From Bryobacteraceae bacterium (GTDB lineage: Bacteria > Acidobacteriota > Terriglobia > Bryobacterales > Bryobacteraceae), in the NCBI GenBank assembly GCA_028275505.1, contig JAPWUP010000006.1:1-53589 (forward strand): a stretch of 53,589 nucleotides of DNA, read 5' to 3'. Below, piece by piece: positions 8,088-42,284 of this stretch; the first letter of the stretch is position 1; each line of letters begins with the position of its first letter. A program made the translations under genes and the position numbers. The notes below the pieces were generated by a model. It saw only the letters and a program-made list of their open reading frames with translations, was not told the DNA's origin and made no database searches.

Positions 8088-8241
8088 GCCGGTCTCCTGT
8101 GCGCTCTCTTGCCGGACGCCAACTCAGCTAATATAGCCGCAACCGGAGATGGCCATGCGAAGCTCCTTGGTGCTCTTGCTGCTCTCACCTCTTTTGGCCG
8201 CCCAGCCGCAAAAGACCGTACCCGCAATCAACGACGTTGAA
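7981..8241. repeat. right copy of ~260-bp direct repeat flanking the defence island
   Basis: Same orientation as the copy at 2678-2935. The central 61-nt intergenic segment (8088-8148) is nearly identical (1 mismatch), while the arms on both sides are diverged. On this side the arm belonging to the three-repeat gene is truncated and the arm belonging to the 993-aa gene continues into the intact gene. Confidence 0.9.
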
Positions 8242-11130
8242 GCCTGGCAGCAAGTGGGCCAGCAGCCGTACGAGATGACCTGGACCCAGCGTCAGGAGCA
8301 TCCCAAGACTCTGGTGGACTTCGAAGACCTGACGGGCTGGACCCTCGAGCTTTACGACGGCGCCGAGGGCGAGCTGCGCCGCAGCCGCGAACAACAGATG
8401 TGGGGTATGTATGTGGCAAAGTTCTGGTACCGGGGCACGGCCTCCGGTAGCCGCATTGTCGCACGTCCCCCCAAACCCGTTCCTATCCCCGAGCGATTCG
8501 ATTCCATCGAGCTTTGGGGATACGGGAACCGGTGGGCCTGGGTGCGCGATGAAACGACGCCGCCCGCTGTCGTCTCCGTGATCATCAACGACGCCCGTGG
8601 CCGCGAGTTCACGATCCAGCTCACCGATATCAACTGGAAGCAGTGGTGGCTGATCCACCGCCGCGTGCCCAAGGAAACCCTGGAGCAGATCGTATGGCCC
8701 GCCAGTTTTGCCGGCCTGGAAATTTCGAAAATCCGCCACACCGAGCCGCGCTATTTCTATTGCGACTCGCTCGCCTTTTACACCGAACAACTCGGGCCGC
8801 TCGAATTCAAGCCACAACCGCAAAGAAACCTCCGACCCTATCGGGGACAGATCGCGGGTCTGAACACCGGGACCGGCAAGCTTCCGTTCCCCACGCGCGA
8901 AGAGACCATCCTGCCGGAGAACTTCGAACGCGAGTTCCGGACGCGGGTGCGGCAACTCGGTCCGCGGACGTTTGAATTCGTTTACGAAGGCCGCGACGCG
9001 CGGGTGGTGTACCAGTACGCCCCTGGTACGGCGAACTTGGGTGAAATCACCGCCAGCGTAAACGGCGGCGCCCCGCTCAAACCGATGGACGGCGGCGGCG
9101 TTCGCTTTGCTGACGCCCCGGAAAAAGCTGCGCCTTCGTGTGAACTGTTGTGGGCGGCTTTGAGCGGGGAAGTCGTAGAGGCGCGGTTCCGTTGCGGCTC
9201 GCGTCTGGTCGAGTACAATCTCCAGCTCTGGCAAAAGTCGCTCGTACTCGACGTTTGGTGCGACGGCGGCGAGGCCACTGAGCTGTCCTTCGGGCGCGTC
9301 AGCGGCCTGAGCAACCCGCGCCTCATCACGATCCCTTATCTGACTTACGGAAGCTCGAATCCGCGCGTCGCCATGGCTGGTTCGCCCGACAAACCGATTT
9401 TCATTTCCGTCTGGTTCGACTGGTACCGCTCCAATGCATCCGAACCCTACTTCGCTGCGGAACCCAAGGTGACCGCCGACAGCGCCGAGATCAACGGCGG
9501 CATGCGTTACATCCCGAAAACCGACGGGCTGCGCAACAACCTCTACGAGCGCATCTTCATCACCGTATCGCCGCGGTACGAAGAAACGCTGCCCACGATC
9601 CCCAATCCGCCCTCCCTGCGACAACAAGAGGGCAAACAGGTCGTCTGGACCGTCACCGAGCCGCGATCGTTCCGCCAAGACCACGAGCGCTCGCGCCGCA
9701 TACGCTCTTACGGCCTGGACAAGATCATGCAACACAGCCATGAAGTGACCTGGCGCGACGAGGGCGACAGCTTCACCATGCGCCTGCGCGCTGCCCCGCA
9801 GAAAGGCGGTGACGCCATGCTGGCCTGGTACATTCGTGCGCAGAACGAGCTGGGTTGGCTCCAGGGCGTCTACACCAACTACACCGACTTTTCGCCCACC
9901 AACACCAACTGGAATCCGGATTTCGTCCAGCGGACCCCCGAAGGTGAATGGCGGCGCGCCTGGCCACGCAATTACGCCTTGAAGCCGGCCAAGGCGGTGG
10001 AAATGGATGAATATTACGCGCCGCGCATCAAGCAGAAGTTCGGCGTGCGCATGTCCTACACCGACGTGCACACTGCGGTAGCGCCGTGGCGTTACTGCGA
10101 TTACGATGCGCGCGTGCCCGGCGCCGGCACGTTCGCCGCCACGTTCTATGCCTACGGTCAGCTCCTGCTCAACGACCAGCGCATCTACGGACCCACGCAA
10201 TCGGAAGCCACTTACCAATGGATGTACGCCGGGCTGGAGTCGGGCAGTTACGGCTGGGTTTATACCAACGTCAACCTGCTAACCCACCCGCCCGATCCCG
10301 CTTTTAAGCTTTACAAGATCCATCCGCTCGAGGCTAGCTACGGGATGGGATACACGCATTACTATCTCGACCGTCTGGATCCCAAGTGGAAGGAATCGCC
10401 CAGGCGGCGCGACTATGTGGACTTGTTTCTGGCGACGACCATCGCCTATGGCAACCTGGGCTGGCTGGTGACGGACTGGGGCCTCGACGATCCTTTCGGA
10501 GTAGAGGTGATGACCCGGTCCTATTACATGCTCCAGCAGCTCCAGCAGCAGTACGCTTTCGTCCGTCCGCGCCGGATCGAGTATGCGGGACCAGACGGGC
10601 GCATGCTCGACCCCAGCCACGCTCACTCCACAGGGGCGATCGCCGGCTCGCGGATCCATGTCGAATACGAAAACGGTACACACGTCTGGGTGAATCGCGC
10701 TTCCCAGGGAACGTGGACGGTCCGCGACAGCGCGGGCCGCGACTTCCGGTTGCCGCCGTCGGGATGGCTGGCGTGGAATACCGCCGTCGGTCTGCTCGAG
10801 TTCTCCGCTGAGATCGAAGGACGCCGCGTGGACTACGTCCGTGCGTCTGAGTACGAGTTCCTGGACGGGCGTGGTCAGTGGACCGAATACGGGCGGCTTG
10901 GCGCCACGGGGAGCGTCGTGCGCCGGGACCGGGAGGGAGGCGTCATCGAGCTGATTGACATCTATGGCAACCAGCAGATCGCTTTCGAAGCGCCCGCGGG
11001 TCGGCTCCTCGCCTACGATGCCGAGGACAAGCTCATCGGCCCGGTTGCCACGCGTACATTGCGTCCCGGGTGGCTCGAGTTCGAACCTGCCGCGGGGGCT
11101 CGCCGGTATGTGTTCACACCGGCGCCGTGA
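8149..11130 (+). CDS. large secreted protein, possible carbohydrate-active enzyme
   Basis: A 993-aa protein with a clear signal peptide (residues 1-19, ending 'LLAAQ'). The N-terminal ~200 residues look like a jelly-roll module (W/Y-rich beta strands, 'FDSIELWGYGNRWAWVRD'). A middle beta-rich part (250-480) is followed by a putative barrel region near 560-800 with 'WYIRAQNELGWLQGVYTNY', 'GVRMSYTDVHTAVAPWRYCD' and 'QSEATYQWMYAGLESGSYGW'. Acidic residues D/E at strand ends there could be catalytic. The C-terminal ~150 residues form another beta domain. The organisation is like large glycoside hydrolases, but I cannot assign a family; this is a weak inference. It uses the divergent promoter duplicated at both ends of the island. 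The start ATG has CCGGAG directly upstream. Confidence 0.65.
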   Translation: MAMRSSLVLLLLSPLLAAQPQKTVPAINDVEAWQQVGQQPYEMTWTQRQEHPKTLVDFEDLTGWTLELYDGAEGELRRSREQQMWGMYVAKFWYRGTASGSRIVARPPKPVPIPERFDSIELWGYGNRWAWVRDETTPPAVVSVIINDARGREFTIQLTDINWKQWWLIHRRVPKETLEQIVWPASFAGLEISKIRHTEPRYFYCDSLAFYTEQLGPLEFKPQPQRNLRPYRGQIAGLNTGTGKLPFPTREETILPENFEREFRTRVRQLGPRTFEFVYEGRDARVVYQYAPGTANLGEITASVNGGAPLKPMDGGGVRFADAPEKAAPSCELLWAALSGEVVEARFRCGSRLVEYNLQLWQKSLVLDVWCDGGEATELSFGRVSGLSNPRLITIPYLTYGSSNPRVAMAGSPDKPIFISVWFDWYRSNASEPYFAAEPKVTADSAEINGGMRYIPKTDGLRNNLYERIFITVSPRYEETLPTIPNPPSLRQQEGKQVVWTVTEPRSFRQDHERSRRIRSYGLDKIMQHSHEVTWRDEGDSFTMRLRAAPQKGGDAMLAWYIRAQNELGWLQGVYTNYTDFSPTNTNWNPDFVQRTPEGEWRRAWPRNYALKPAKAVEMDEYYAPRIKQKFGVRMSYTDVHTAVAPWRYCDYDARVPGAGTFAATFYAYGQLLLNDQRIYGPTQSEATYQWMYAGLESGSYGWVYTNVNLLTHPPDPAFKLYKIHPLEASYGMGYTHYYLDRLDPKWKESPRRRDYVDLFLATTIAYGNLGWLVTDWGLDDPFGVEVMTRSYYMLQQLQQQYAFVRPRRIEYAGPDGRMLDPSHAHSTGAIAGSRIHVEYENGTHVWVNRASQGTWTVRDSAGRDFRLPPSGWLAWNTAVGLLEFSAEIEGRRVDYVRASEYEFLDGRGQWTEYGRLGATGSVVRRDREGGVIELIDIYGNQQIAFEAPAGRLLAYDAEDKLIGPVATRTLRPGWLEFEPAAGARRYVFTPAP

Positions 11131-33186: not shown

Positions 33187-34298
33187 CTCGGAGGGAACTG
33201 CTGGGATTGTTTGCCGGCGCAGCTCTGGGACCGGCTGCGCAACCGCCGGCCGCTCCCGTGGCCATTGCACGGGTGGCCGGTTATGACTCAGGACTCGAGG
33301 AAGCCGTCGCCCGCCTCTTCGATCAGCTGGGCGGCCTGGGCAGGCTGGTCAAAGGGAAGACCGTGACCATCAAACTGAACCTGACCGGGAGTCCGGCGCT
33401 GCGTTTCGAAGGCCGGCCGCTCGGCACGACCCACTACGTGCACCCGCGCGTGGTGGGCGCCGTGGTGCGGGCGATGGGACAGGCGGGCGCCCGGCGTATC
33501 CGCTTGGTGGAAAGCTGCTGGGCCACCGGCGGGCCGATGGAGGAGTTCTTGCTCGACAGCGGCTGGCCCGTCCGCGCTCTGGCCAGCGCCGCCCCGGGCG
33601 TCGAGTTCGAAAACACGAACAACCGTGGCAAGTTCGGGCGCTACGTACGCTTCAAAGTGGCTCGAGGCGCATGGATCTATCCGGCTTACGATCTTAACGC
33701 CGCCTACGAGCAGACGGACGTCTTCGTCAGCCTGGCCAAGCTCAAAAATCACGAGACTTGCGGCGTCACGCTTTCGCTCAAGAACTGCTTCGGCATCACG
33801 CCCGCTTCGATTTACGGTGACGATGCCGGACGTGATGAGCCGAATGAAAATCCGACCAAGGGCCGCGCCGACGTCTTTCATTTCGGAAAGCGTCCGCCAT
33901 CGCGCAGCGCGCCGCAGGAGCTGGATCCTTCCTCCAGCCGGGACCCCGGCTATCGCGTGCCGCGAATCACAGCCGAGCTGGTCTCGGCCCGCCCGGTGGA
34001 TCTGGCGATCATTGACGGGATCCAGACCGTGACGGGCGGGGAAGGTCCCTGGATTCGCGGCCTGAAATTCGTGGAGCCGGGACTGCTCATCGCGGGACTG
34101 AATCCTGTGTGCACGGACGCGGTGGCCATGGCCGTCATGGGCTATGATCCGCAGGCGGGTCGCGGCGCTCCTCCCTTCCGCCGGTGCGATAACACGCTCA
34201 AGCTGGCCGAGAGTCTCGGGGTCGGCACCACGGATCTGCGGCGCATCGAAGTTCGTGGTCTCACGATCGAGCAGGCTCGCTTCCCCTTCCCGACCTGA
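33183..34298 (+). CDS. DUF362 family protein, Tat-type N-terminus (cassette copy 2)
   Basis: A 371-aa protein aligned along its length with the one at 637-1761, including 'LFDQLGGLGRLVKGKTV', 'DVFVSLAKLKNHETCGVTLS', 'KNCFGITPASIYGDD' and 'INPVCTDAVAMAVMGYDP'-type C-terminal sequence. The N-terminal 'TRRELLGLFAGAALG' is a twin-arginine-like signal. No ferredoxin cysteines are visible. The start overlaps the upstream gene's stop, and murB follows 5 nt after its own stop, so three genes are probably read together. The function of DUF362 is unknown; conservation of both partners in duplicate argues that they act as a pair (inference). Confidence 0.87.
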   Translation: MTRRELLGLFAGAALGPAAQPPAAPVAIARVAGYDSGLEEAVARLFDQLGGLGRLVKGKTVTIKLNLTGSPALRFEGRPLGTTHYVHPRVVGAVVRAMGQAGARRIRLVESCWATGGPMEEFLLDSGWPVRALASAAPGVEFENTNNRGKFGRYVRFKVARGAWIYPAYDLNAAYEQTDVFVSLAKLKNHETCGVTLSLKNCFGITPASIYGDDAGRDEPNENPTKGRADVFHFGKRPPSRSAPQELDPSSSRDPGYRVPRITAELVSARPVDLAIIDGIQTVTGGEGPWIRGLKFVEPGLLIAGLNPVCTDAVAMAVMGYDPQAGRGAPPFRRCDNTLKLAESLGVGTTDLRRIEVRGLTIEQARFPFPT

Positions 34299-34302
34299 GC
34301 TG

Positions 34303-35313
34303 ATGCCGACGACCTCAGCGCGTTCGCTCGCCCGGAAACTGGCCGAGTTGCCGGGCGTCGCCGTTGCGGAAGATCTGCCCCTGGCGGAAAAGACGCGCTT
34401 CGGCATCGGCGGTCCCGCGGACCTGTACCTGGAAACGCCCTGCGAAAGCTCTCTCGTCGAGGCGCTGCGCCTTCTCGATGCGGCGAGCATCCCGAGGGCG
34501 ATGCTCGGCGGCGGCACCAACGTGATCGTGGCCGACGAGGGCTTCCGCGGTGCGGTCCTGCATTATACGGGCGCGCGCATGGAAAGGTCGGGTTTGAGCA
34601 TCCACGTTGACGCCGGCGCTGAGCTCCAGAGGCTGGTGGACGAAGCGAATGCGGCGGGCCTGAAGGGCTTGGAAACGCTGGCCGGCATACCCGGCACCGT
34701 CGGAGGTGCAGTCTACGGGAACGCCGGGGCCTACGGTCACTCGATCTCCGAGTGCGTGCGCGAGGTCCGTGTCTGGGATGGAGAACGGGTCGGGTGCCTG
34801 ACGGCTGAGGCGTGCGCTTTCGATTATCGCGAGAGCGTGTTCAAACGCCAGCGCCGGTGGGTCATCCTTGCCGTGAGCCTGGAATTGCAGCCGGGCGATC
34901 CCGCAGAGCTGACCCGGCGCAGCGCCGAGCTGGTCGCTTTGCGCCGCGAGAAATACCCCCCCGAGATGAGGTGCGCGGGCAGCATTTTCAAGAACCTGAT
35001 TTACGATCGCCTGCCGCCGCGGGCCCGCGCGGCCTTCCCGCCCGAGCTGGTGCGCGAGGGGAAGGCGCCCGCCGCGTGGTTTCTCGAGCAGGTCGGCGCC
35101 AAGGGGATGCGGTGCGGCGACATTGTCGTCGCCGCCCATCACGCCAATCTGATTTACAACGCCGGAGCGGGCACCGCGCGTCAGCTCTGCGAACTGATTG
35201 CCGAACTGAAACGGCGCGTGCGGGAGCGCTTCGATCTAGAGCTGGAGGAGGAGGTCCAGTTCCTCGGGCCGCATCCGGGCGGCGGGCTTACGAGCAGCCT
35301 CTGCCCAGCTTGA
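34303..35313 (+). CDS. murB: UDP-N-acetylenolpyruvoylglucosamine reductase
   Basis: A 336-aa FAD enzyme making UDP-N-acetylmuramate for peptidoglycan. 'KTRFGIGGPADLYL' near 27-40, 'MLGGGTNVIVADEGFRG' near 67-83 and 'GIPGTVGGAVYGNAGAYG' near 129-146 bind FAD. 'CAGSIFKN' near 226 holds the catalytic serine, and 'GDIVVAAHHANLIYN' follows. ATG 34303 is taken because it lies just after the DUF362 stop and the residues before it are unconserved. The 3' end overlaps the convergent rhodanese gene by 26 nt. Its place behind a secreted DUF362 cassette is unusual for a cell-wall gene. Confidence 0.95.
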   Translation: MPTTSARSLARKLAELPGVAVAEDLPLAEKTRFGIGGPADLYLETPCESSLVEALRLLDAASIPRAMLGGGTNVIVADEGFRGAVLHYTGARMERSGLSIHVDAGAELQRLVDEANAAGLKGLETLAGIPGTVGGAVYGNAGAYGHSISECVREVRVWDGERVGCLTAEACAFDYRESVFKRQRRWVILAVSLELQPGDPAELTRRSAELVALRREKYPPEMRCAGSIFKNLIYDRLPPRARAAFPPELVREGKAPAAWFLEQVGAKGMRCGDIVVAAHHANLIYNAGAGTARQLCELIAELKRRVRERFDLELEEEVQFLGPHPGGGLTSSLCPA

Positions 35314-35935
35314 GCTTGCGCGGAGCCCCGGGGCCGGGTGAGGGCGGTGCGGGCGTCGGCGCGGGCGTGATGGGTTTCGCCGATGGTTCCGACGGCCCGC
35401 CCATGAACTGCTCGCGCAGCGCCTTTGCCTGCCGGTATCCGGAAGGCGTCCGGTTCTCTCCGCGCAGGCTTTGCGGCGTCATCACCTGATCCCACCAGGC
35501 GCTGATGCCTTCCTTGAGCGAAAGGGCGCGGTAGCCTTTCATGCTCAACAGGAGCTGGGTCTGTGCGGCGTGCCCCGCCCCGAGGCCGTAGACGACGATG
35601 ATCTTGCTGCGATCGAGCTGCTTCAATCCTTCCGCCGTGAAAAGCTGGCTCAGCGGAATGTTGATCGCGCCCGGAATGTGATAGTCGTCGTATTCCCAGG
35701 GTTCCCGCAGGTCAACGAGCTGATAGTCCTTGCGCTTTTCCAGGATCCAGCGGGCCAGCTCGAGCGGCTGGACGTGGTCCTTTTCGGCCAGCATGGCCTC
35801 CACAACGGCTTCGGGAGAAGCGGGATTCCACCCCGCGGCAGATCCAAGAGCGGAGGCTGCCGCCAGCGCGCCCGCCACAACAAGCACTGCAGCCGCCGCC
35901 AGAGTTTTGCCTCTCAGCTCGATTTCGATTCTCAT
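35288..35935 (-). CDS. membrane-anchored rhodanese-like protein lacking the catalytic cysteine
   Basis: A 215-aa protein with an N-terminal membrane anchor (residues 12-32, 'AAAAVLVVAGALAAASALG'), a rhodanese domain at about 60-155 ('YQLVDLREPWEYDDYHIPGA', 'GYRALSLKEGISAWWDQV') and a proline-rich tail. Active rhodaneses have Cys in the loop after the central strand; here that strand and loop read 'IIVVYGLGAGHAAQ', so the persulfide-forming cysteine is missing. It may bind a sulfur anion or act as a structural partner rather than as a transferase. Last gene of the molybdoenzyme/YeeE operon, 21 nt from the YeeE gene; its 3' end overlaps murB. Confidence 0.85.
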   Translation of the reverse strand: MRIEIELRGKTLAAAAVLVVAGALAAASALGSAAGWNPASPEAVVEAMLAEKDHVQPLELARWILEKRKDYQLVDLREPWEYDDYHIPGAINIPLSQLFTAEGLKQLDRSKIIVVYGLGAGHAAQTQLLLSMKGYRALSLKEGISAWWDQVMTPQSLRGENRTPSGYRQAKALREQFMGGPSEPSAKPITPAPTPAPPSPGPGAPRKLKLGRGCS

Positions 35936-35956
35936 TTCGCCCTCCCGTTGGTCTTC

Positions 35957-36613
35957 TCAAACGAGCGCAGCTTCATCCTGCGACGGAGCGGGGCTCGCGG
36001 GGGCGCCGCTCCTGCCCCTCGCGTAGGTCTTCTCGTACAAGCGCCAGCGGCTCTCGCTCATCTCTGCGACCCAGAAGGCACCGAGGGCCACCAGCGTCAC
36101 CAGGAAAGCCACGACGCCTGCAGGGAGGTTCAACACCTGGGGCAGGGTGAGTACGCCTCGCGCGCCGCTCTGATGAAACTCATGCAAGGCCGGCTCTGCC
36201 GCTCCAAAGATCCAGATTCCACCGAAAATTCCGGCCAGAAAAAACAGGGCGTCCAGTTTGCCAGTAACCGCGGCCACCACTCCGGTGCCCGGACAGTATC
36301 CGCCGAGGATGAAACCGGCGCCCAGCAGAAGTCCGCCCACGAGCTGCGGCCACAGGTACGTCTCCGGCACGTAGATCGCGCCGAAATCCAAGACACCGGC
36401 CAGCGACAACCACGCCAGTCCCAGCATGGCCACCACGATGGCGCCGAACATGACTTTCAGCACGCTCCAATCGCGGAAATAGAACTGGCCGGTAAGTCGG
36501 ATCGCACTGGAAAAACCGGCTCTCTCCAGAAAGAAACCGAAAAAGAAACCCAGCAGGAGAGACACCACGATAAAACTGGCGCCCGACAAATCGAGCGGGA
36601 AAGTAGCCGTCAT
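35957..36613 (-). CDS. YeeE/YedE family (sulfur transport) protein, half-size
   Basis: A 218-aa membrane protein, half the length of the classical YeeE/TsuA thiosulfate permease. About five helices are visible, with the signature 'GFILGGYCPGTGVVAAVTG' near 98-116 supplying a conserved cysteine. The ATG overlaps the upstream gene's stop (ATGA) and has AGGAGG in front. The other half of the permease is fused to the cytochrome b upstream, so the two should assemble as a pseudo-dimer pore (inference from two-gene YeeE/YedE systems). A basic C-terminal tail lies in the cytoplasm. Confidence 0.85.
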   Translation of the reverse strand: MTATFPLDLSGASFIVVSLLLGFFFGFFLERAGFSSAIRLTGQFYFRDWSVLKVMFGAIVVAMLGLAWLSLAGVLDFGAIYVPETYLWPQLVGGLLLGAGFILGGYCPGTGVVAAVTGKLDALFFLAGIFGGIWIFGAAEPALHEFHQSGARGVLTLPQVLNLPAGVVAFLVTLVALGAFWVAEMSESRWRLYEKTYARGRSGAPASPAPSQDEAALV

Positions 36614-37896
36614 AACCAGATCCTCCTGAGCAGGTACGCGCCTGCGAACGCGGCAGCGAAGACACTCAGCATGAACACGAACGCGCCCGCGGAAAGTGTC
36701 GCGCCGCCGCTCAGCGCCAGTCCGGACGTGCAGCCGCGCGCCATGCGCGCTCCGAAGCCCGAGAGCAAACCGCCGGCAAAAGCCAGCGCCCACCTGGCGC
36801 GCACCGGGACGGACGGTCCGCGGTCCGTCGTCCAGCGCAACCGGCCTGCCAGCCAGCCTGAGACCAAACCGCCGAGGGCCACGCCGATCAGTTCAAGGGC
36901 CAGGAAATCCATCAACACCGGGCGGCCCGCTTGGACGTAGTTGCTCCAGTACGGGTGCGAGGCGGCGTAGCCGGGTGCGACCAGTTGGATCAGGAACGCC
37001 AGGTAGCGCGTGAAGCCGCCGGACGCGCCCAGTCCCTGCCCCACGAGCAGGAAGGCGGCAAGTAGCGTCAACCCCAAACCCAGAGCGGCCCAGTAGGCCG
37101 GCCAATACTCCCGTGCGCGCAACGCCGCCCAGACCCGGGACGAAGCCTGCGGCGCCGCCTCTTCCAGCTCACCTGCGGCTCGCTTGCGCTCCAGCATTTT
37201 CACTTCCTCCCACCATTTCCGGTGGTGCCTGTAAGCGTAACTTTCCGGCACCATTCCCGTGATCATCGAAAAGAACGCAGGCTTTTCCTCTGGGAACACA
37301 GCGCCCATGTAGACGTGAATCATGAGGCCGCTCACCACGACGGCGACCGCCAGGAAGTGAACGACCACGGCCCAGCCCACCACGCTGGCCGGCCCCCAGT
37401 GAAAGGCCATGATGAGGCCGGAGATGGCGATCAGCGGGACCATCGCGTAGACGGTCAGGGCGAACAGCTTCTGGCCCGCGTTGTAAATGCCCTGGGGAGG
37501 CAGCGGCTCATTGCTGCGGCCCAGCAGCCGAAGAATGCGGATCCTGAGCCAGTTCACGTCATCGCGATCCAGGGCGATTTCCCGTTTCAGTACTTCCTCG
37601 CGCAGATACGTCCTCCAGCCGAAGATGCCGTAGACTGCCAGCACCACGATCCACGTCAATCCCACGGCAATGTGGAAACGCAGCATGTTGGCTCGCGTGC
37701 CGAAAACGCCGGTGACCAGCTCGACGTACCACTGCGGCGCGAAACGGAAACGGTCACTTTGAATCAGCGCGGCGCCGGTGGTCAGTTCCGCCAGCCACAC
37801 GAACGCGTTGAACCAGTGCAGCAGCATGATCGCTACGTGGTGCTTCTTGATCATGCGCTCGGAAAACGCAGGAAGGTAGGTGGCCTGCTCACTCAT
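36610..37896 (-). CDS. cytochrome b fused to a YeeE/YedE half-transporter
   Basis: A 428-aa fusion. Residues 1-230 are a di-heme cytochrome b of the formate-dehydrogenase gamma/b561 type, with candidate heme histidines in 'KKHHVAIMLLHWFNAFVW', 'RFHIAVGLTWIV' and 'VVHFLAVAVVVSGLMIHVYM'. A charged linker follows (about 230-260). Residues 265-428 are a YeeE/YedE half with 'GARMARGCTSGLALSGGAT' near 380-400. The cytochrome would exchange electrons between the quinone pool and the FeS subunit. Fusing it to a sulfur-permease half physically links electron transfer to movement of a sulfur species. It overlaps the ferredoxin gene by 8 nt and the second YeeE half by 4 nt. I know no named family with this architecture. 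Confidence 0.85.
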   Translation of the reverse strand: MSEQATYLPAFSERMIKKHHVAIMLLHWFNAFVWLAELTTGAALIQSDRFRFAPQWYVELVTGVFGTRANMLRFHIAVGLTWIVVLAVYGIFGWRTYLREEVLKREIALDRDDVNWLRIRILRLLGRSNEPLPPQGIYNAGQKLFALTVYAMVPLIAISGLIMAFHWGPASVVGWAVVVHFLAVAVVVSGLMIHVYMGAVFPEEKPAFFSMITGMVPESYAYRHHRKWWEEVKMLERKRAAGELEEAAPQASSRVWAALRAREYWPAYWAALGLGLTLLAAFLLVGQGLGASGGFTRYLAFLIQLVAPGYAASHPYWSNYVQAGRPVLMDFLALELIGVALGGLVSGWLAGRLRWTTDRGPSVPVRARWALAFAGGLLSGFGARMARGCTSGLALSGGATLSAGAFVFMLSVFAAAFAGAYLLRRIWL

Positions 37897-38620
37897 CGAA
37901 CTGGCTTTCTCCTTTCCTGAGCTGGGTGAAGAAAGCGATGGCCTGACCGAGGAAGGTCGCGCCGGCCATCAGGAACGCGAGCGGCTTGAAGACCCGCTCC
38001 CACCATTGCCCAGACGAGGGGATTTGCGGCGGGTGCGGAGCAAATTTCTCCCGCACCAAGGCGGGCTCGCCTCGCGTCCCCAGATAATACACGTTCGGCC
38101 CGATTTTCACTTCGTCGCTTTCGATGCGCTCAGCGCCCCGCCCGTAGACGAGCCGGTAGACCTCGCTGTTGGGATCCTCCAGATCGCCGAAGAATTTGGC
38201 GTGCGCGGTGCACGTGGTGACGCAAGCCGGAAGCTGGCCGCGCTCCAGGCGGGCCGCGCAAAAGTCGCACTTGTCCACCTTCTGCGTGACCGGATTCAGG
38301 TAGCGAGCATCATACGGGCAAGCCGGAATACAGTAGCCGCATCCGATGCAGAGTTTGGGATCAATCTTGACAATGCCGTCCGGCCCCTGGAACGTGGCGC
38401 CGGATGGGCAGGCCTCGACGCAAGGCGGGCGGTCGCAATGGTTGCACTGGGCAACGTAGAACGCGGCGCGCAGCCTGGGAAACTCGCCGACGGGGCCTGT
38501 GGGCAGCACGCGGGTGCGAGCGTGGCCCGGGGGCACGTCCCATTCCGCGCTGCAGGCCGCGGTGCAAGCCTCGCAACCCACGCAGCGGGTCAAGTCCGTA
38601 ACCATCGCATAGCGGGCCAT
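37889..38620 (-). CDS. four-cluster [4Fe-4S] ferredoxin subunit of a molybdoenzyme (PsrB/TtrB-like)
   Basis: A 243-aa electron-transfer subunit. Four cysteine groups are visible: 'CVGCEACTAAC' (13-23), 'CNHCDRPPCVEAC' (near 59), 'CIGCGYCIPACPYDA' (near 91) and 'CDFCAARLERGQLPACVTTC' (near 118), the DmsB/PsrB/TtrB pattern. A C-terminal hydrophobic segment (about 207-230, 'PLAFLMAGATFLGQAIAFF') anchors it to the membrane, unusual for the soluble type. It begins 3 nt after the molybdenum subunit gene and overlaps the cytochrome b gene, so the complex is made from one mRNA. Confidence 0.92.
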   Translation of the reverse strand: MARYAMVTDLTRCVGCEACTAACSAEWDVPPGHARTRVLPTGPVGEFPRLRAAFYVAQCNHCDRPPCVEACPSGATFQGPDGIVKIDPKLCIGCGYCIPACPYDARYLNPVTQKVDKCDFCAARLERGQLPACVTTCTAHAKFFGDLEDPNSEVYRLVYGRGAERIESDEVKIGPNVYYLGTRGEPALVREKFAPHPPQIPSSGQWWERVFKPLAFLMAGATFLGQAIAFFTQLRKGESQFDE

Positions 38621-38623
38621 GGC

Positions 38624-40825
38624 TCAACTCTCCTCGGCGGGCAGCGGGCGCACGAAGTTCACGTGCATCCCTGTGGCGCCGGTCAGCGGGTCAGTCGCGA
38701 CGCGGCTCAGCAGTGCGTTGTCAGAGGCGCCGCGCCCGTTGGCCCGACGCAGTCCTGGTGCTCGCAAGCCGAAACCGTGCACCATGAAAGCGCAATCGGG
38801 ACGGATGCCTGGCGTCGTCCGCACGGTGACAGGCAGGCTTTTCCGTCCGTCCTGGTTTTCGAGAACCACGCGCTGGCCATCGTGCAGGCCGAAGGCGCGG
38901 GCGGTTTGCGGGTTGATCCAGACCGCGTTTTCCGGCATCAGGCCGGCGAGCAAAGCGTTGTTCTGGCTGCGCGCGAAGCTGTGCACGGGCGCGCGTCCAT
39001 AGAGCAAACGGAGCCAGCCCGGAGGCGGGTCCGCCGGAGGACGGTATACGGGCAGCGGGTCATGGCCCAGTTCTTTCAGTAGCTTCGAGTAGAGCTCGAT
39101 CTTGCCGCTTTCGGTGGGAAACAGCGGACCGTCTTCAGGCTTTCTCGACTCGATGTAAGGCCGGCCCTCAAACGAGACAGCGCCACGAGCCTTCAGTTCC
39201 TTCAGGCTGATGCCCAGCGGCTCGATGATTTTCGCCAGATGCTCGTCGGGCGTTCGCCAGGGGAACCAGGCTTCCAGGCCGAGCCGGCGCGCGAGCTCGC
39301 GCGCAATCCACCAGCCGGGCCGGGTATCGTAGAGCGGGGCCACCACGGGCTGGCGCACGGCTATGAAAGGCCGGGCAGCGGTTTCGACAATATGCGGCGG
39401 ATCGTAACGCTCGAGGTAGGTGGCTTCGGGCAAAACAAGATCGGCGTAAAGCGTTTGTTCGACGGGCAGGATATCCACCACCACCATCAGCTCGAGGCGG
39501 GCGATGGCGGCCAGCGTACGTTCGCGCTGGGGCAGCGACTCCAGCACATTCTGGCCGTAAACGATCCAACCTTTGATGGGATAAGGCCGCCCGGTCAGGG
39601 TCGCCTCGACGAGCCCGGTCGTGATGCCCTGTTCCTCGCTGGCCAGGGGGTAGCGGTCGCCGGCGCCATCGGCCCGGCCGCGCTTGGGTTCGGGAAACGG
39701 CGGCAGATCGAAATGGCCCCGAGGAACGGGGGTCCGCAACAGGATGCCGCCCTTGCGACCCCAGGCGCCCAGCAAAGCAGTGAGTATGGCCATGGCGCGC
39801 GCCCGCTGCGTGTCGTCTCCGTACCAGGTCACGTGGCGCCCGGGATGGATGACCACCGCGGGTTTGGCGGCGGCTATGGCGCGAGCGGTCTCGCGAATCA
39901 GGCCGGCAGGCAGCTCCGTCTCCCGCGAGGCCCATTCCGGCGTGAAGTTGCGGACGTGCTCCCGCAACTGGTCCAGGCCGGTTGCGTAGGCGGCCAGATA
40001 CGCCTTGTCTTCCAGGCCTTCGGAAAGGATCACGTGCATCCAGGCGAGCAGCAGCGCGATGTCGGTCCCAGGGCGGATCGGCAGCCACCAGTCCGCCTTG
40101 GACGCCGCCGTGGAGAACCGCGGGTCCACGACGATCAGCCTCGCCCCGCGCGCCAGCCCCTCGGCGAACTGGGTGATCTGCGACGTGAATACGTTCTCGC
40201 CCAGATGCGAGCCGATCAGCACGATGGCCCTGGCGTTGGCCAGGTCCAGCGGTTCGGGCGAGCCCAGCGGACGTCCAAAGGTGAGCGCATAGCCGACGTC
40301 GCGCGGCCCCCGGCATTGTGCGAAGGACGGCTCCGCTGAATTCGGGGTGCCGTAGGCCTTCATGAGGGTGGCGAAAAAGCTGGAGCCGACCCCGTGAGGG
40401 AAGAAGGCCACCGATTCGGGGCCGTATTTCTCCTTCAGCTCGGTCAGCCGCGCCGCCAGCCAGTCCAGCGCTTCGTCCCATGAAATCTCGCGGAAACGTC
40501 CTTCACCGCGCTCGCCCACGCGCAACTGCGGACGCTTGAGCCGGTCGGGATCGTAAAGCGTGAAGTGGCCCGCATTTCCGCGCGCGCACAGGCGGCCTTG
40601 CGTGAGCGGATGCTGCGGGTTGCCTTCGATGCGGGTAACTTTTCCGTCCTGAACCTTGGCGAGGATCCCGCAGCGCCAGAAACACATTTCGCAATTGCTG
40701 GCGACTTGGAGTGCAGGCTTGCCGGCCCGCTGGCCCGGCGTGGGCGTGGCCCCGGCTTCCCGGGATGCTCCGGCCAGGGTTGCAGTGCTCAGCAACCAGT
40801 CCCTGCGGCTGATGCGACTGCTCAC
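38624..40825 (-). CDS. Tat-exported molybdopterin oxidoreductase catalytic subunit (PsrA/PhsA-like)
   Basis: A 733-aa DMSO-reductase superfamily enzyme started at GTG 40825 with GGGAG 8 nt upstream. The N-terminus 'SRISRRDWLLSTATLAGA' is a twin-arginine signal. The first cluster is 'CEMCFWRCGILAKV' with a fourth cysteine in 'GRLCARGN'. 'YGTPNSAEPSFAQCRGPRD' near 165-183 is where this branch carries its molybdenum ligand, here probably cysteine, as in thiosulfate, polysulfide and tetrathionate reductases. C-terminal molybdopterin-binding sequence 'PENAVWINPQTARAFGLHDG' is present. The substrate is not readable; the YeeE and rhodanese partners favour a sulfur compound (inference). Confidence 0.9.
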   Translation of the reverse strand: MSSRISRRDWLLSTATLAGASREAGATPTPGQRAGKPALQVASNCEMCFWRCGILAKVQDGKVTRIEGNPQHPLTQGRLCARGNAGHFTLYDPDRLKRPQLRVGERGEGRFREISWDEALDWLAARLTELKEKYGPESVAFFPHGVGSSFFATLMKAYGTPNSAEPSFAQCRGPRDVGYALTFGRPLGSPEPLDLANARAIVLIGSHLGENVFTSQITQFAEGLARGARLIVVDPRFSTAASKADWWLPIRPGTDIALLLAWMHVILSEGLEDKAYLAAYATGLDQLREHVRNFTPEWASRETELPAGLIRETARAIAAAKPAVVIHPGRHVTWYGDDTQRARAMAILTALLGAWGRKGGILLRTPVPRGHFDLPPFPEPKRGRADGAGDRYPLASEEQGITTGLVEATLTGRPYPIKGWIVYGQNVLESLPQRERTLAAIARLELMVVVDILPVEQTLYADLVLPEATYLERYDPPHIVETAARPFIAVRQPVVAPLYDTRPGWWIARELARRLGLEAWFPWRTPDEHLAKIIEPLGISLKELKARGAVSFEGRPYIESRKPEDGPLFPTESGKIELYSKLLKELGHDPLPVYRPPADPPPGWLRLLYGRAPVHSFARSQNNALLAGLMPENAVWINPQTARAFGLHDGQRVVLENQDGRKSLPVTVRTTPGIRPDCAFMVHGFGLRAPGLRRANGRGASDNALLSRVATDPLTGATGMHVNFVRPLPAEES

Positions 40826-40961: not shown

Positions 40962-42284
40962 ATGGGCCGAAAGACCTTCTATCTGGAGACCTTTGGCTGC
41001 CAGATGAATGTCCACGACTCCGAAAAGGTGGTCGGGACATTGCTGGCGCAAGGCTACGAACAGGTAGATTCTCCCGAGGAAGCCGACCTCATCCTGTACA
41101 ACACGTGCAGCGTTCGGGAGAAAGCCGAGCAAAAGGTTTACAGCCGGTTGCAGCAATTCCGCCGTGAGGCGGGCGCCGGCAAGGTGTTCGGCGTGCTGGG
41201 CTGCGTGGCCCAGCAGGAGGGGGAACGTATTTTCGAGCGCGCCCCGCACGTGGCCTTGGTCTGCGGTTCGGCCAGCTACCGTCGCTTGCCGGAGCTGCTG
41301 GCTCGCATCGAAGCCGGCGAGCGGCGCGTAACCGGGCTGGAGCTGGATACGGACGAGACGTTTGAAACGCCGCTGACGCGCCGCGACAATCCCTATCGCG
41401 CCTACGTGACGATCATCGAAGGGTGCGACAAACATTGCACGTTCTGCGTGGTGCCGTTCACGCGCGGGCGCGAGCGCAGTCGCCCCAGCGAAAGCATCAT
41501 GCGCGAGGTCCGGGATCTGGCGGCGGCCGGTTACACCGAGATCCAACTGCTCGGACAGAACGTCTCCAGCTACCGCGATCCCTCGCCGGCGGGATGGGAT
41601 TTCGTCACGCTGCTGGAGCAGGTAGCCCGGGTCCCGGGTTTGCGACGCGTGCGTTTCACCACATCGCACCCCCGGGAATTCGACCGTCGAATCGTGCGCG
41701 CCATCGAAGAGAATCCGGTCTTGGCCAACCACGTCCACCTGCCGGTGCAGTCCGGCTCGGATCGCGTGCTCGAGCGCATGCAGCGGCAGTATACGCGCGC
41801 GGAGTACCTGGAAAAGATCGAATGGATCAAGAGCGCGCGCCGTCCCATCGCCATCTCGACCGACATCATCGTGGGTTTCCCCGGCGAAACCGAAGAGGAT
41901 TTCCAGCAGACGCTGTCGTTGCTGGACGAGGTCGGCTACGACTCGGTGTTCAGCTTCAAGTACTCGCCGCGTCCCAACACCGCAGCGTTGACGCTGGACG
42001 GGCATCTGCCGGATGAGGAAAAGGGCCGCCGCCTGGCCATCCTGCAAGAGAAGCAGCGCGCCATCCAACTGCGGCGCAACAGCCAGTGGATCGGTCGGAC
42101 GGTCGAGGTGCTGGTAGAAAGCTTCAATCCGGGGACGGGGCAGTGGGTCGGACGCACCTCGGAGAACCGCGTGGTGAACTTCACCTGCCCGGAGGGAGTC
42201 AAGGAATCCCTGGCCGGGCGTTACGTCCACGTCCATGTCACGCGCGCCGGCCCGAACTCGCTGGCCGGCGAGCTGGCGGCTTGA
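40962..42284 (+). CDS. miaB: tRNA-2-methylthio-N6-dimethylallyladenosine synthase
   Basis: A 440-aa radical SAM methylthiotransferase modifying i6A37 of tRNA. The N-terminal MTTase domain shows 'ETFGCQMNVHDSEK' (C13), 'YNTCSVREKAEQK' and 'GVLGCVAQQEGE', giving the three auxiliary-cluster cysteines. The radical core follows with 'EGCDKHCTFCVVPFTRGRE', and a C-terminal TRAM domain ends the protein ('GRTVEVLVES', 'YVHVHVTRAGPNSLAGE'). Motif spacing separates it from RimO. A perfect TATAAT lies at 40938-40943 but no good -35 stands 17 bp before it. AGGGG precedes the ATG. Confidence 0.96.
   Translation: MGRKTFYLETFGCQMNVHDSEKVVGTLLAQGYEQVDSPEEADLILYNTCSVREKAEQKVYSRLQQFRREAGAGKVFGVLGCVAQQEGERIFERAPHVALVCGSASYRRLPELLARIEAGERRVTGLELDTDETFETPLTRRDNPYRAYVTIIEGCDKHCTFCVVPFTRGRERSRPSESIMREVRDLAAAGYTEIQLLGQNVSSYRDPSPAGWDFVTLLEQVARVPGLRRVRFTTSHPREFDRRIVRAIEENPVLANHVHLPVQSGSDRVLERMQRQYTRAEYLEKIEWIKSARRPIAISTDIIVGFPGETEEDFQQTLSLLDEVGYDSVFSFKYSPRPNTAALTLDGHLPDEEKGRRLAILQEKQRAIQLRRNSQWIGRTVEVLVESFNPGTGQWVGRTSENRVVNFTCPEGVKESLAGRYVHVHVTRAGPNSLAGELAA

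Follow-up and report, generated by a model that had tools for sequence, protein, structure and literature searches.

In known enzymes, a molybdenum (Mo) subunit, a ferredoxin, and a cytochrome b form a path for electrons between Mo and quinone, and the usual schemes leave a gap between periplasmic sulfur enzymes and the cytoplasmic use of sulfur. In TsuA, a permease of the YeeE family, C293, C91, and C22 form a line through the membrane, and a thiosulfate relay has been proposed (in a passage of PMC11073785). According to a section of PMC11582611, PmpB and PmpA correspond to the two halves of YeeE, with Cys91 and Cys293, and the homologous split pair YedE1E2 aids the uptake of zero-valent sulfur in Escherichia coli, with glutathione persulfide (GSSH) forming inside the cell (an excerpt of PMC10812762). 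Here, we describe a five-gene operon in a 53,589-nucleotide stretch of DNA from a Bryobacteraceae bacterium (GenBank assembly GCA_028275505.1, contig JAPWUP010000006.1; the whole stretch is called the window) that encodes a Mo subunit, a ferredoxin, a cytochrome b fused to one half of a YeeE permease, the other half, and a rhodanese-fold protein with a C-terminal Cys tail. The operon may specify a periplasmic oxidoreductase for sulfane sulfur that exchanges electrons with quinone and is coupled to sulfur import through a carrier arm, a reading to which we give about even chances.

The fusion protein is encoded in one uninterrupted frame, its cytochrome part matching PF01292 (cytochrome b561; residues 20-214, E = 1.7e-19) and its C-terminal part matching PF04143 (Sulf_transp; residues 227-417, profile positions 144-309, E = 6.7e-17), and the product of the next gene matches the other end of the same profile (positions 3-158, E = 1.5e-15)—all above the Pfam cut-off. 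A cytochrome b fused to a YeeE/YedE half, as proposed in an interpretation made earlier without database searches (the sequence-only reading), was thus borne out, the C-terminal half matching the YeeE/YedE profile. H180 and H194 of the fusion protein align with FdnI residues 155 and 169 (alignment count), which we take to be haem ligands, and the AlphaFold model of the cytochrome half is confident, with FdnI (1kqf_C) as the best PDB match (E = 1.3e-8; TM-score by target, 0.80). The putative YeeE identity of the C-terminal half rests on sequence profiles.

A search for further fusions and their neighbourhoods, which the sequence-only reading had suggested, showed that the arrangement recurs. 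Genome contigs were scanned with an alignment of four fusions and the best 80 of 107 relatives were kept; the fusion is present in a single frame in 18 of these 80 loci, namely 13 from Acidobacteria (L074-L085, L087), one from Ignavibacteriales (L086), and four from Aminicenantes (L095, L098, L100, L101), and the PmpB half follows next after the fusion gene in all 18. The recurrent fusions are at 41-77% identity, with the closest fusion proteins, among the same best 80 of 107, found in metagenome-assembled genomes (MAGs) of Bryobacteraceae/Bryobacterales and other Acidobacteria. Full-length matches were found in 2 of 61 relatives and 3 of 297 genomes of the phylum, the window's own genome being in both counts, and three of the fusion loci, L079, L095, and L100, are records that these two scans also contain. 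All of these counts come from loci picked for their similarity; many are MAGs, and related loci should not be taken as independent. The cut between the cytochrome and YeeE query pieces may lie some residues off, and layout assignments are independent of it. A chance match or a gene-calling artefact was rejected, given the single open frame, the scores of both halves, and the recurrence of the fusion.

The fusion protein, the PmpB half, and the rhodanese-fold protein contain exactly one Cys each: C389, C107 (in GGYCPGT), and C214, respectively. C389 aligns with TsuA C293 and C107 with TsuA C91, and both are invariant in alignments of relatives. Thus, a thiol relay through the window cysteines is plausible, because three proteins are single-Cys and two of these residues align with TsuA Cys293 and Cys91. 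The two halves resemble PmpA/PmpB (YedE1E2) in matching C- and N-terminal YeeE, respectively, with one conserved Cys each; unlike in YeeE/TsuA, of which they keep the Cys91 and Cys293 equivalents and the PF04143 match, they lie on two chains, one of them joined to cytochrome b.

The last protein of the operon matches PF00581 (E = 9.7e-16), the sole Pfam match at E values up to 0.1, and had been called rhodanese-like. The domain is present, but the label is misleading, with the catalytic Cys gone and a C-terminal Cys tail conserved. The protein comprises an N-terminal hydrophobic helix, a Pro/Ala-rich linker, and a C-terminal KLKLGRGCS, with Gly at the catalytic position. Across 40 aligned tail proteins, hand-picked for having the tail, this position is held by Gly (18), Ser (11), or Ala (11), and never by Cys, and the five controls in the same alignment have the catalytic Cys. 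A canonical rhodanese sulfurtransferase was therefore rejected for the window protein, the catalytic Cys being absent; three other readable rhodaneses of the window's genome, the match L160 left aside, keep this Cys and have no such tail.

The tail itself is conserved more widely. The motif [KR]LKLG[RKH]GC[ST] ends the rhodanese-like protein in all 14 Acidobacteria fusion operons (the window and 13 loci), with EGC, GGC, GGCG, GGCGG, GGCGS, and similar endings elsewhere. A motif search found a PmpA-type motif just upstream of 40 of 41 distinct PmpB-type genes. Among YeeE-half pairs followed by at least 700 nucleotides (nt), 33 of 35 have a next or fused open reading frame (ORF) ending in GC plus at most two residues, the background being 119 of 7346 stop-to-stop ORFs of at least 80 amino acids (aa) in the same loci, those 33 included; because PmpB genes were located by motif, diverged ones escape this count. 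The two pairs without such an ORF are those of L101 (Aminicenantes) and L171, and L055 (Aminicenantes), with 693 nt after the pair, lies outside the count and has no tail. In the Ignavibacteriales fusion operon (L086), the rhodanese-like slot holds a 92-aa protein (8090-8368) with one hydrophobic helix, a basic linker, and a DSQDEGC end, for which no Pfam or NCBIfam match was found; here, the tail is kept without the rhodanese fold. Some of these tail ends may be comparable to the C-terminal GGC-type arm of the sulfur carrier SoxY, the comparison being one of motifs. The window protein differs in its rhodanese fold and in having GRGCS rather than GGCGG, no SoxY domain was found in it by Pfam, and the operon has no Sox genes. 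No report of a tail-bearing rhodanese with YeeE was recognised among the matches listed from the open-licence literature.

At the Cys91 site, for which the window uses Cys, the codon is TGA in 4 of the 18 fusion loci, with the frame open on both sides, and probably encodes selenocysteine (Sec) in these relatives. A frameshift or decay was rejected as the source of the TGA, since four assemblies have it exactly where the Cys codon stands and the flanking sequence is conserved on either side. When the collected loci were scanned by pattern, TGA turned up at the two YeeE Cys sites in these four only; five places taken from the matches flagged with a TGA showed the PmpB motif with a Cys codon in three cases, and in two the motif was not found by pattern. 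SelB (scored against the family cut-off) and tRNA-Sec (scored against the gathering score) are both above cut-off in the genomes of L078, L080, and L082, and neither is in that of L083 (2.0 Mb). Among the 19 genomes searched, SelB passed in 10 and tRNA-Sec in 12, the window's genome in both, and the corresponding numbers for 14 control genomes were 2 and 5. In all four loci, the sequence after the TGA can fold into a short hairpin with a GGUC loop, and the same hairpin sequence occurs in Cys-using L076; the folding energies are unremarkable (z from -0.17 to -1.09), and for three of the loci a different structure is optimal over the 42 nt. With no Rfam match in the four TGA loci either, a selenocysteine insertion sequence (SECIS) was found neither by folding energy nor by Rfam. 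A Sec-containing YeeE protein with the motif GUxSG appears in a section of a review (PMC13188914) and likewise places selenocysteine in this family; the GUxSG given there resembles the Cys293 site, whereas here it is the Cys91 site, in the other half, that has the TGA, and in relatives only.

The Mo subunit contains PF00384, PF01568, and PF04879 (molybdopterin, Fe4S4, and dinucleotide-binding domains by Pfam), and its best PDB match, nearly full length, is Thermus PsrA (2vpw_A; phmmer, 772 bits, E = 4.1e-231). The two proteins can be aligned end to end, with matches at the Cys that we take to be the Mo ligand and at the neighbouring His and Arg positions, whose roles in PsrA are likewise our assumption. 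The NCBIfam PhsA equivalog model gave 527.3 bits, under its cut-off of 694, and PhsA proteins of enterobacterial plasmids are about 33% identical to the subunit (345-352 bits; tblastn, best 20 of 1282 records). An SRRDWL leader is twin-arginine-like. The ferredoxin has 16 Cys residues—room for four 4Fe-4S clusters, as in Psr/Phs—and a single C-terminal hydrophobic helix (residues 214-232), presumably as in FdnH. Thus, a Psr/Phs-like Mo respiratory enzyme with a permease half on its membrane subunit and the other half adjacent, as first suggested from the letters, agrees with the Pfam domains and the PsrA match. The membrane subunit of Psr is NrfD, whereas that of the window operon is an FdnI-like PF01292 cytochrome b, and the operon further differs from Psr/Phs in the fused permease half and the tail protein. 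Formate dehydrogenase-N (FdnGHI) shares the cytochrome type and the ferredoxin helix, but the catalytic subunit of the window is PsrA-like and its cytochrome carries a YeeE half. No report of a cytochrome b-YeeE architecture in a Psr/Phs-like enzyme was recognised among the matches listed from the open-licence literature.

The five tightly packed genes named in the sequence-only reading are all present (Table 1). From the Mo subunit to the tail protein, the borders are a 3-nt gap, an 8-nt overlap, a 4-nt ATGA overlap, and a 21-nt gap, and the operon lies between a murB-type gene (34144-35313), which converges on it, and a radical-SAM gene (40962-42284), which diverges from it. The window's genome comprises 4.66 Mb on 392 contigs and is estimated to be 98.9% complete. 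As analysed, the Mo subunit was 6 residues longer than the GTG-start protein of Table 1. A gene for a TorD-like (nitrate-reductase-delta-type) chaperone lies directly upstream of the operon in L086 (2215-2823), L095 (2025-2900), and L101 (2379-2915), the frame in L095 also matching helix-turn-helix domains.

Table 1. Genes of the operon at 35288-40825 of the window and in-frame TGA codons in related loci
Feature	Locus	Coordinates	Strand	Length and basis
Mo-bisPGD-type catalytic subunit, PsrA/PhsA kind (P0001)	window	38624-40825	minus	733 aa from GTG at 40825; Pfam, PDB match, twin-arginine-like leader
Ferredoxin subunit (P0002)	window	37889-38620	minus	PF13247; hydropathy; Cys list
FdnI-like cytochrome b with C-terminal (PmpA-type) YeeE half (P0003)	window	36610-37896	minus	428 aa; PF01292 and PF04143, single frame
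N-terminal (PmpB-type) YeeE half (P0004)	window	35957-36613	minus	PF04143
Rhodanese-fold tail protein (P0005)	window	35288-35935	minus	PF00581; alignments; hydropathy; Cys list
In-frame TGA at the GGYCPGT Cys of the PmpB half	L078	7734-7736
In-frame TGA at the GGYCPGT Cys of the PmpB half	L080	7752-7754
In-frame TGA at the GGYCPGT Cys of the PmpB half	L082	7665-7667
In-frame TGA at the GGYCPGT Cys of the PmpB half	L083	7734-7736

In the mechanism that we propose, electrons would run between Mo and quinone by way of the ferredoxin and cytochrome b. The cytochrome carries the PmpA half, and the PmpB half from the next gene would complete the YeeE permease. The anchored tail protein would offer a flexible C-terminal Cys arm, on which C214 would take up zero-valent sulfur in the form of a persulfide, at the Mo site or close to it, and pass it to C389 on the permease's outer face. 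From there, the sulfur would move to C107 (the probable selenocysteine of some relatives) and on to a cytoplasmic acceptor, with electrons travelling via cytochrome b, and the fusion would keep the permease beside the enzyme, so that sulfur would be channelled and not lost. The most economical model, in part because of the single-Cys pattern, is one in which the tail gives sulfane sulfur covalently to the permease. Operon order, together with fusions elsewhere of the PmpB half to the tail protein and, in Myxococcota, of the ferredoxin to cytochrome b, would link neighbouring steps. Two directions can be envisaged, namely reduction of thiosulfate or polysulfide, with part of the sulfur imported, and oxidation of sulfide to carrier-bound sulfane sulfur, with reduction of quinone; the former is slightly favoured because of the relation to Psr/Phs.

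The second direction, taken as an explanation in its own right, overlaps the proposal above: sulfide, or sulfide plus sulfite, would be oxidised at Mo, quinone would be reduced, and sulfane sulfur on the tail Cys would be imported. SoxY belongs to sulfur oxidation, and the tail, which by its motif may be SoxY-like, would fit such a role. An ArsR-type regulator gene also follows the operon in L078, and this family includes sulfane-sulfur repressors of sulfur oxidation, as noted in parts of PMC12423496 and PMC10451225. However, the window's genome gave no match to DsrA, in a search whose controls held no true positive, or to TusA, and the nearest characterised relatives are named reductases. We give an oxidative run somewhat less than even chances.

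Beyond the fusion, the YeeE halves keep other company. The sequence-only reading had set the operon apart from Psr/Phs/Ttr enzymes by its attached permease half; the half is indeed attached here, but separate YeeE halves recur near Psr-type operons (L061, L065, L066, L068, L069, L073, each with a Mo-subunit match and picked by YeeE-half similarity), and the fusion is one of several layouts. In layout I, a Mo subunit, a ~180-aa ferredoxin, and a ~320-aa subunit—NrfD by Pfam in L073, with a similar one in L086, the two loci tested—are followed by a separate PmpA half, a PmpB half, and a tail protein. Layout III is the fusion, and in layout IV, of Myxococcota, the cytochrome b precedes a separate PmpA half, the ferredoxin being fused to the cytochrome in L112, L115, and L116. 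Elsewhere (L063, L064, L067, L071), a PF11783 multihaem cytochrome c, of what we take to be the family including octaheme tetrathionate reductase, is followed by a PmpA half and a fusion of PmpB half and tail protein, and a PF01292 cytochrome b gene lies between the PF11783 cytochrome and the PmpA half in L063 and L071, the two tested. No report of octaheme tetrathionate reductase with YeeE was recognised among the matches listed from the open-licence literature, in which PMC11237559 contains both terms. From these layouts, the split YeeE and the anchored Cys-arm carrier may, tentatively and with the odds somewhat against it, represent a previously undescribed mobile redox-coupled sulfur-translocation module, one that serves periplasmic sulfur enzymes which are unrelated to each other but all linked to quinone, namely octaheme-type cytochromes and Mo enzymes that have NrfD or cytochrome b. 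The enzyme would then hand sulfane sulfur covalently to the arm, and the arm would hand it to a Cys/Sec relay in the permease; in one branch, the permease would be a covalent part of the electron-transfer subunit.

Several observations on these loci stand apart. A FadL-like outer-membrane protein gene lies nearby in L071, and another (8176-9441) separates the PmpB half from the gene for the tail protein in L082. Anaeromyxobacter oryzae (L116) has two such operons close by, one with cytochrome b and the other with a Mo subunit that groups with layout I. The PmpB half of the window matched only 2 plasmid records; L191, a plasmid of Gemmatirosa kalamazoonensis (Gemmatimonadota), encodes a PmpA half, a PmpB half, and a rhodanese-like protein ending in RLRRRGC.

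A plainer account holds that the operon encodes a Phs/Psr-like reductase, that the YeeE halves and tail protein form an independent importer sharing the operon, and that the fusion is a fixed read-through of no mechanistic meaning. In layout II (e.g., L057, L088), Mo subunit, ferredoxin, and cytochrome b genes have no adjoining YeeE genes (L091, L092, and L093 are uninformative here, their contigs ending too early), some of these relatives are nested among fused ones, and the YeeE pair is also found with other genes. However, the fusion has been kept at 41-77% identity over three lineages, and a cytochrome b gene stands directly before the PmpA half not only in L063 and L071 but also in Myxococcota L106 and L112. 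We regard this account as unlikely, though still to be reckoned with.

The history of the fusion bears on the same point. The trees were quick ones, that of the Mo subunit being made without a mixture model. The YeeE-half tree groups the window with 13 other Acidobacteria fusions in a single clade (support 96) and places the Aminicenantes and Ignavibacteriales fusions apart on long branches. The Ignavibacteriales fusion is sister (support 91 in the cytochrome tree and 92 in the Mo-subunit tree) to an Acidobacteriota group (98 and 100, respectively) in which fused and permease-less operons are mixed; in the Mo-subunit tree, a branch with 12 fused operons also takes in four permease-less ones of Terriglobia (support 97). 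A single origin of the fusion is allowed by the YeeE-half tree but given no support (support 3, long branches), and fused operons do not separate from unfused ones in the cytochrome and Mo-subunit trees. Loss of the permease in some lineages would be the simplest reading, and fits because L058, with no adjoining YeeE, keeps a tail protein (KLKLGVGCS); alternatively, fusion may have happened repeatedly. The earlier statement that transport seems built into the respiratory complex was too strong, as close relatives, some of them inside the fusion clade, have no adjoining YeeE. YeeE would thus be dispensable for catalysis.

Alongside layout II, several further results weigh against an oxidoreductase coupled to import. 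The YeeE half of the fusion, modelled by AlphaFold fused or alone, is of low confidence and has no PDB match. In further differences from YeeE/TsuA, Ser replaces TsuA C22 in the PmpB half (alignment count), and TusA (PF01206) was not found in 6 of the 10 genomes searched, the window's included, the other 4 having matches; a TusA-type YeeD is therefore no general partner. The use of inward-passed sulfur in biosynthesis, which the sequence-only reading had put forward, is neither favoured nor disfavoured by the searches for TusA and DsrA in the window's genome. Cys-using genomes, again including that of the window, have SelB and tRNA-Sec as well, and so the machinery permits, and does not prove, selenocysteine. 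As for the tail, one of the five controls (L105) has the catalytic Cys and a GC end together, no tail protein was found after the YeeE pair of L171, and the three Aminicenantes fusion operons that are long enough encode a short canonical rhodanese with the catalytic Cys and no tail.

Finally, that the tail Cys serves as an electron or thiol donor by disulfide exchange, for example re-reducing the permease cysteines at each turnover, rather than as a sulfur carrier, is improbable: a lone terminal Cys suits either role and Sec in the relatives' permease half suits redox chemistry, but Pfam found only the rhodanese domain, and no thioredoxin-type domain, in the tail protein.

Under the proposal of enzyme-coupled import, the operon would offer a concrete, testable bridge across the gap between periplasmic sulfur enzymes and cytoplasmic sulfur use, in which the enzyme is tied to a permease and to a carrier arm. 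If this is true, Psr/Phs-like genes of soil Acidobacteria would need re-annotation, to separate those for a reductase alone from those for an enzyme plus importer, and rhodanese-like proteins without the catalytic Cys would gain a role. The TGA codons of the relatives suggest a second selenocysteine site in the YeeE family. Overall, the gene content and order of the operon suggest that extracellular sulfur chemistry may be physically coupled to sulfur import in this soil acidobacterium.

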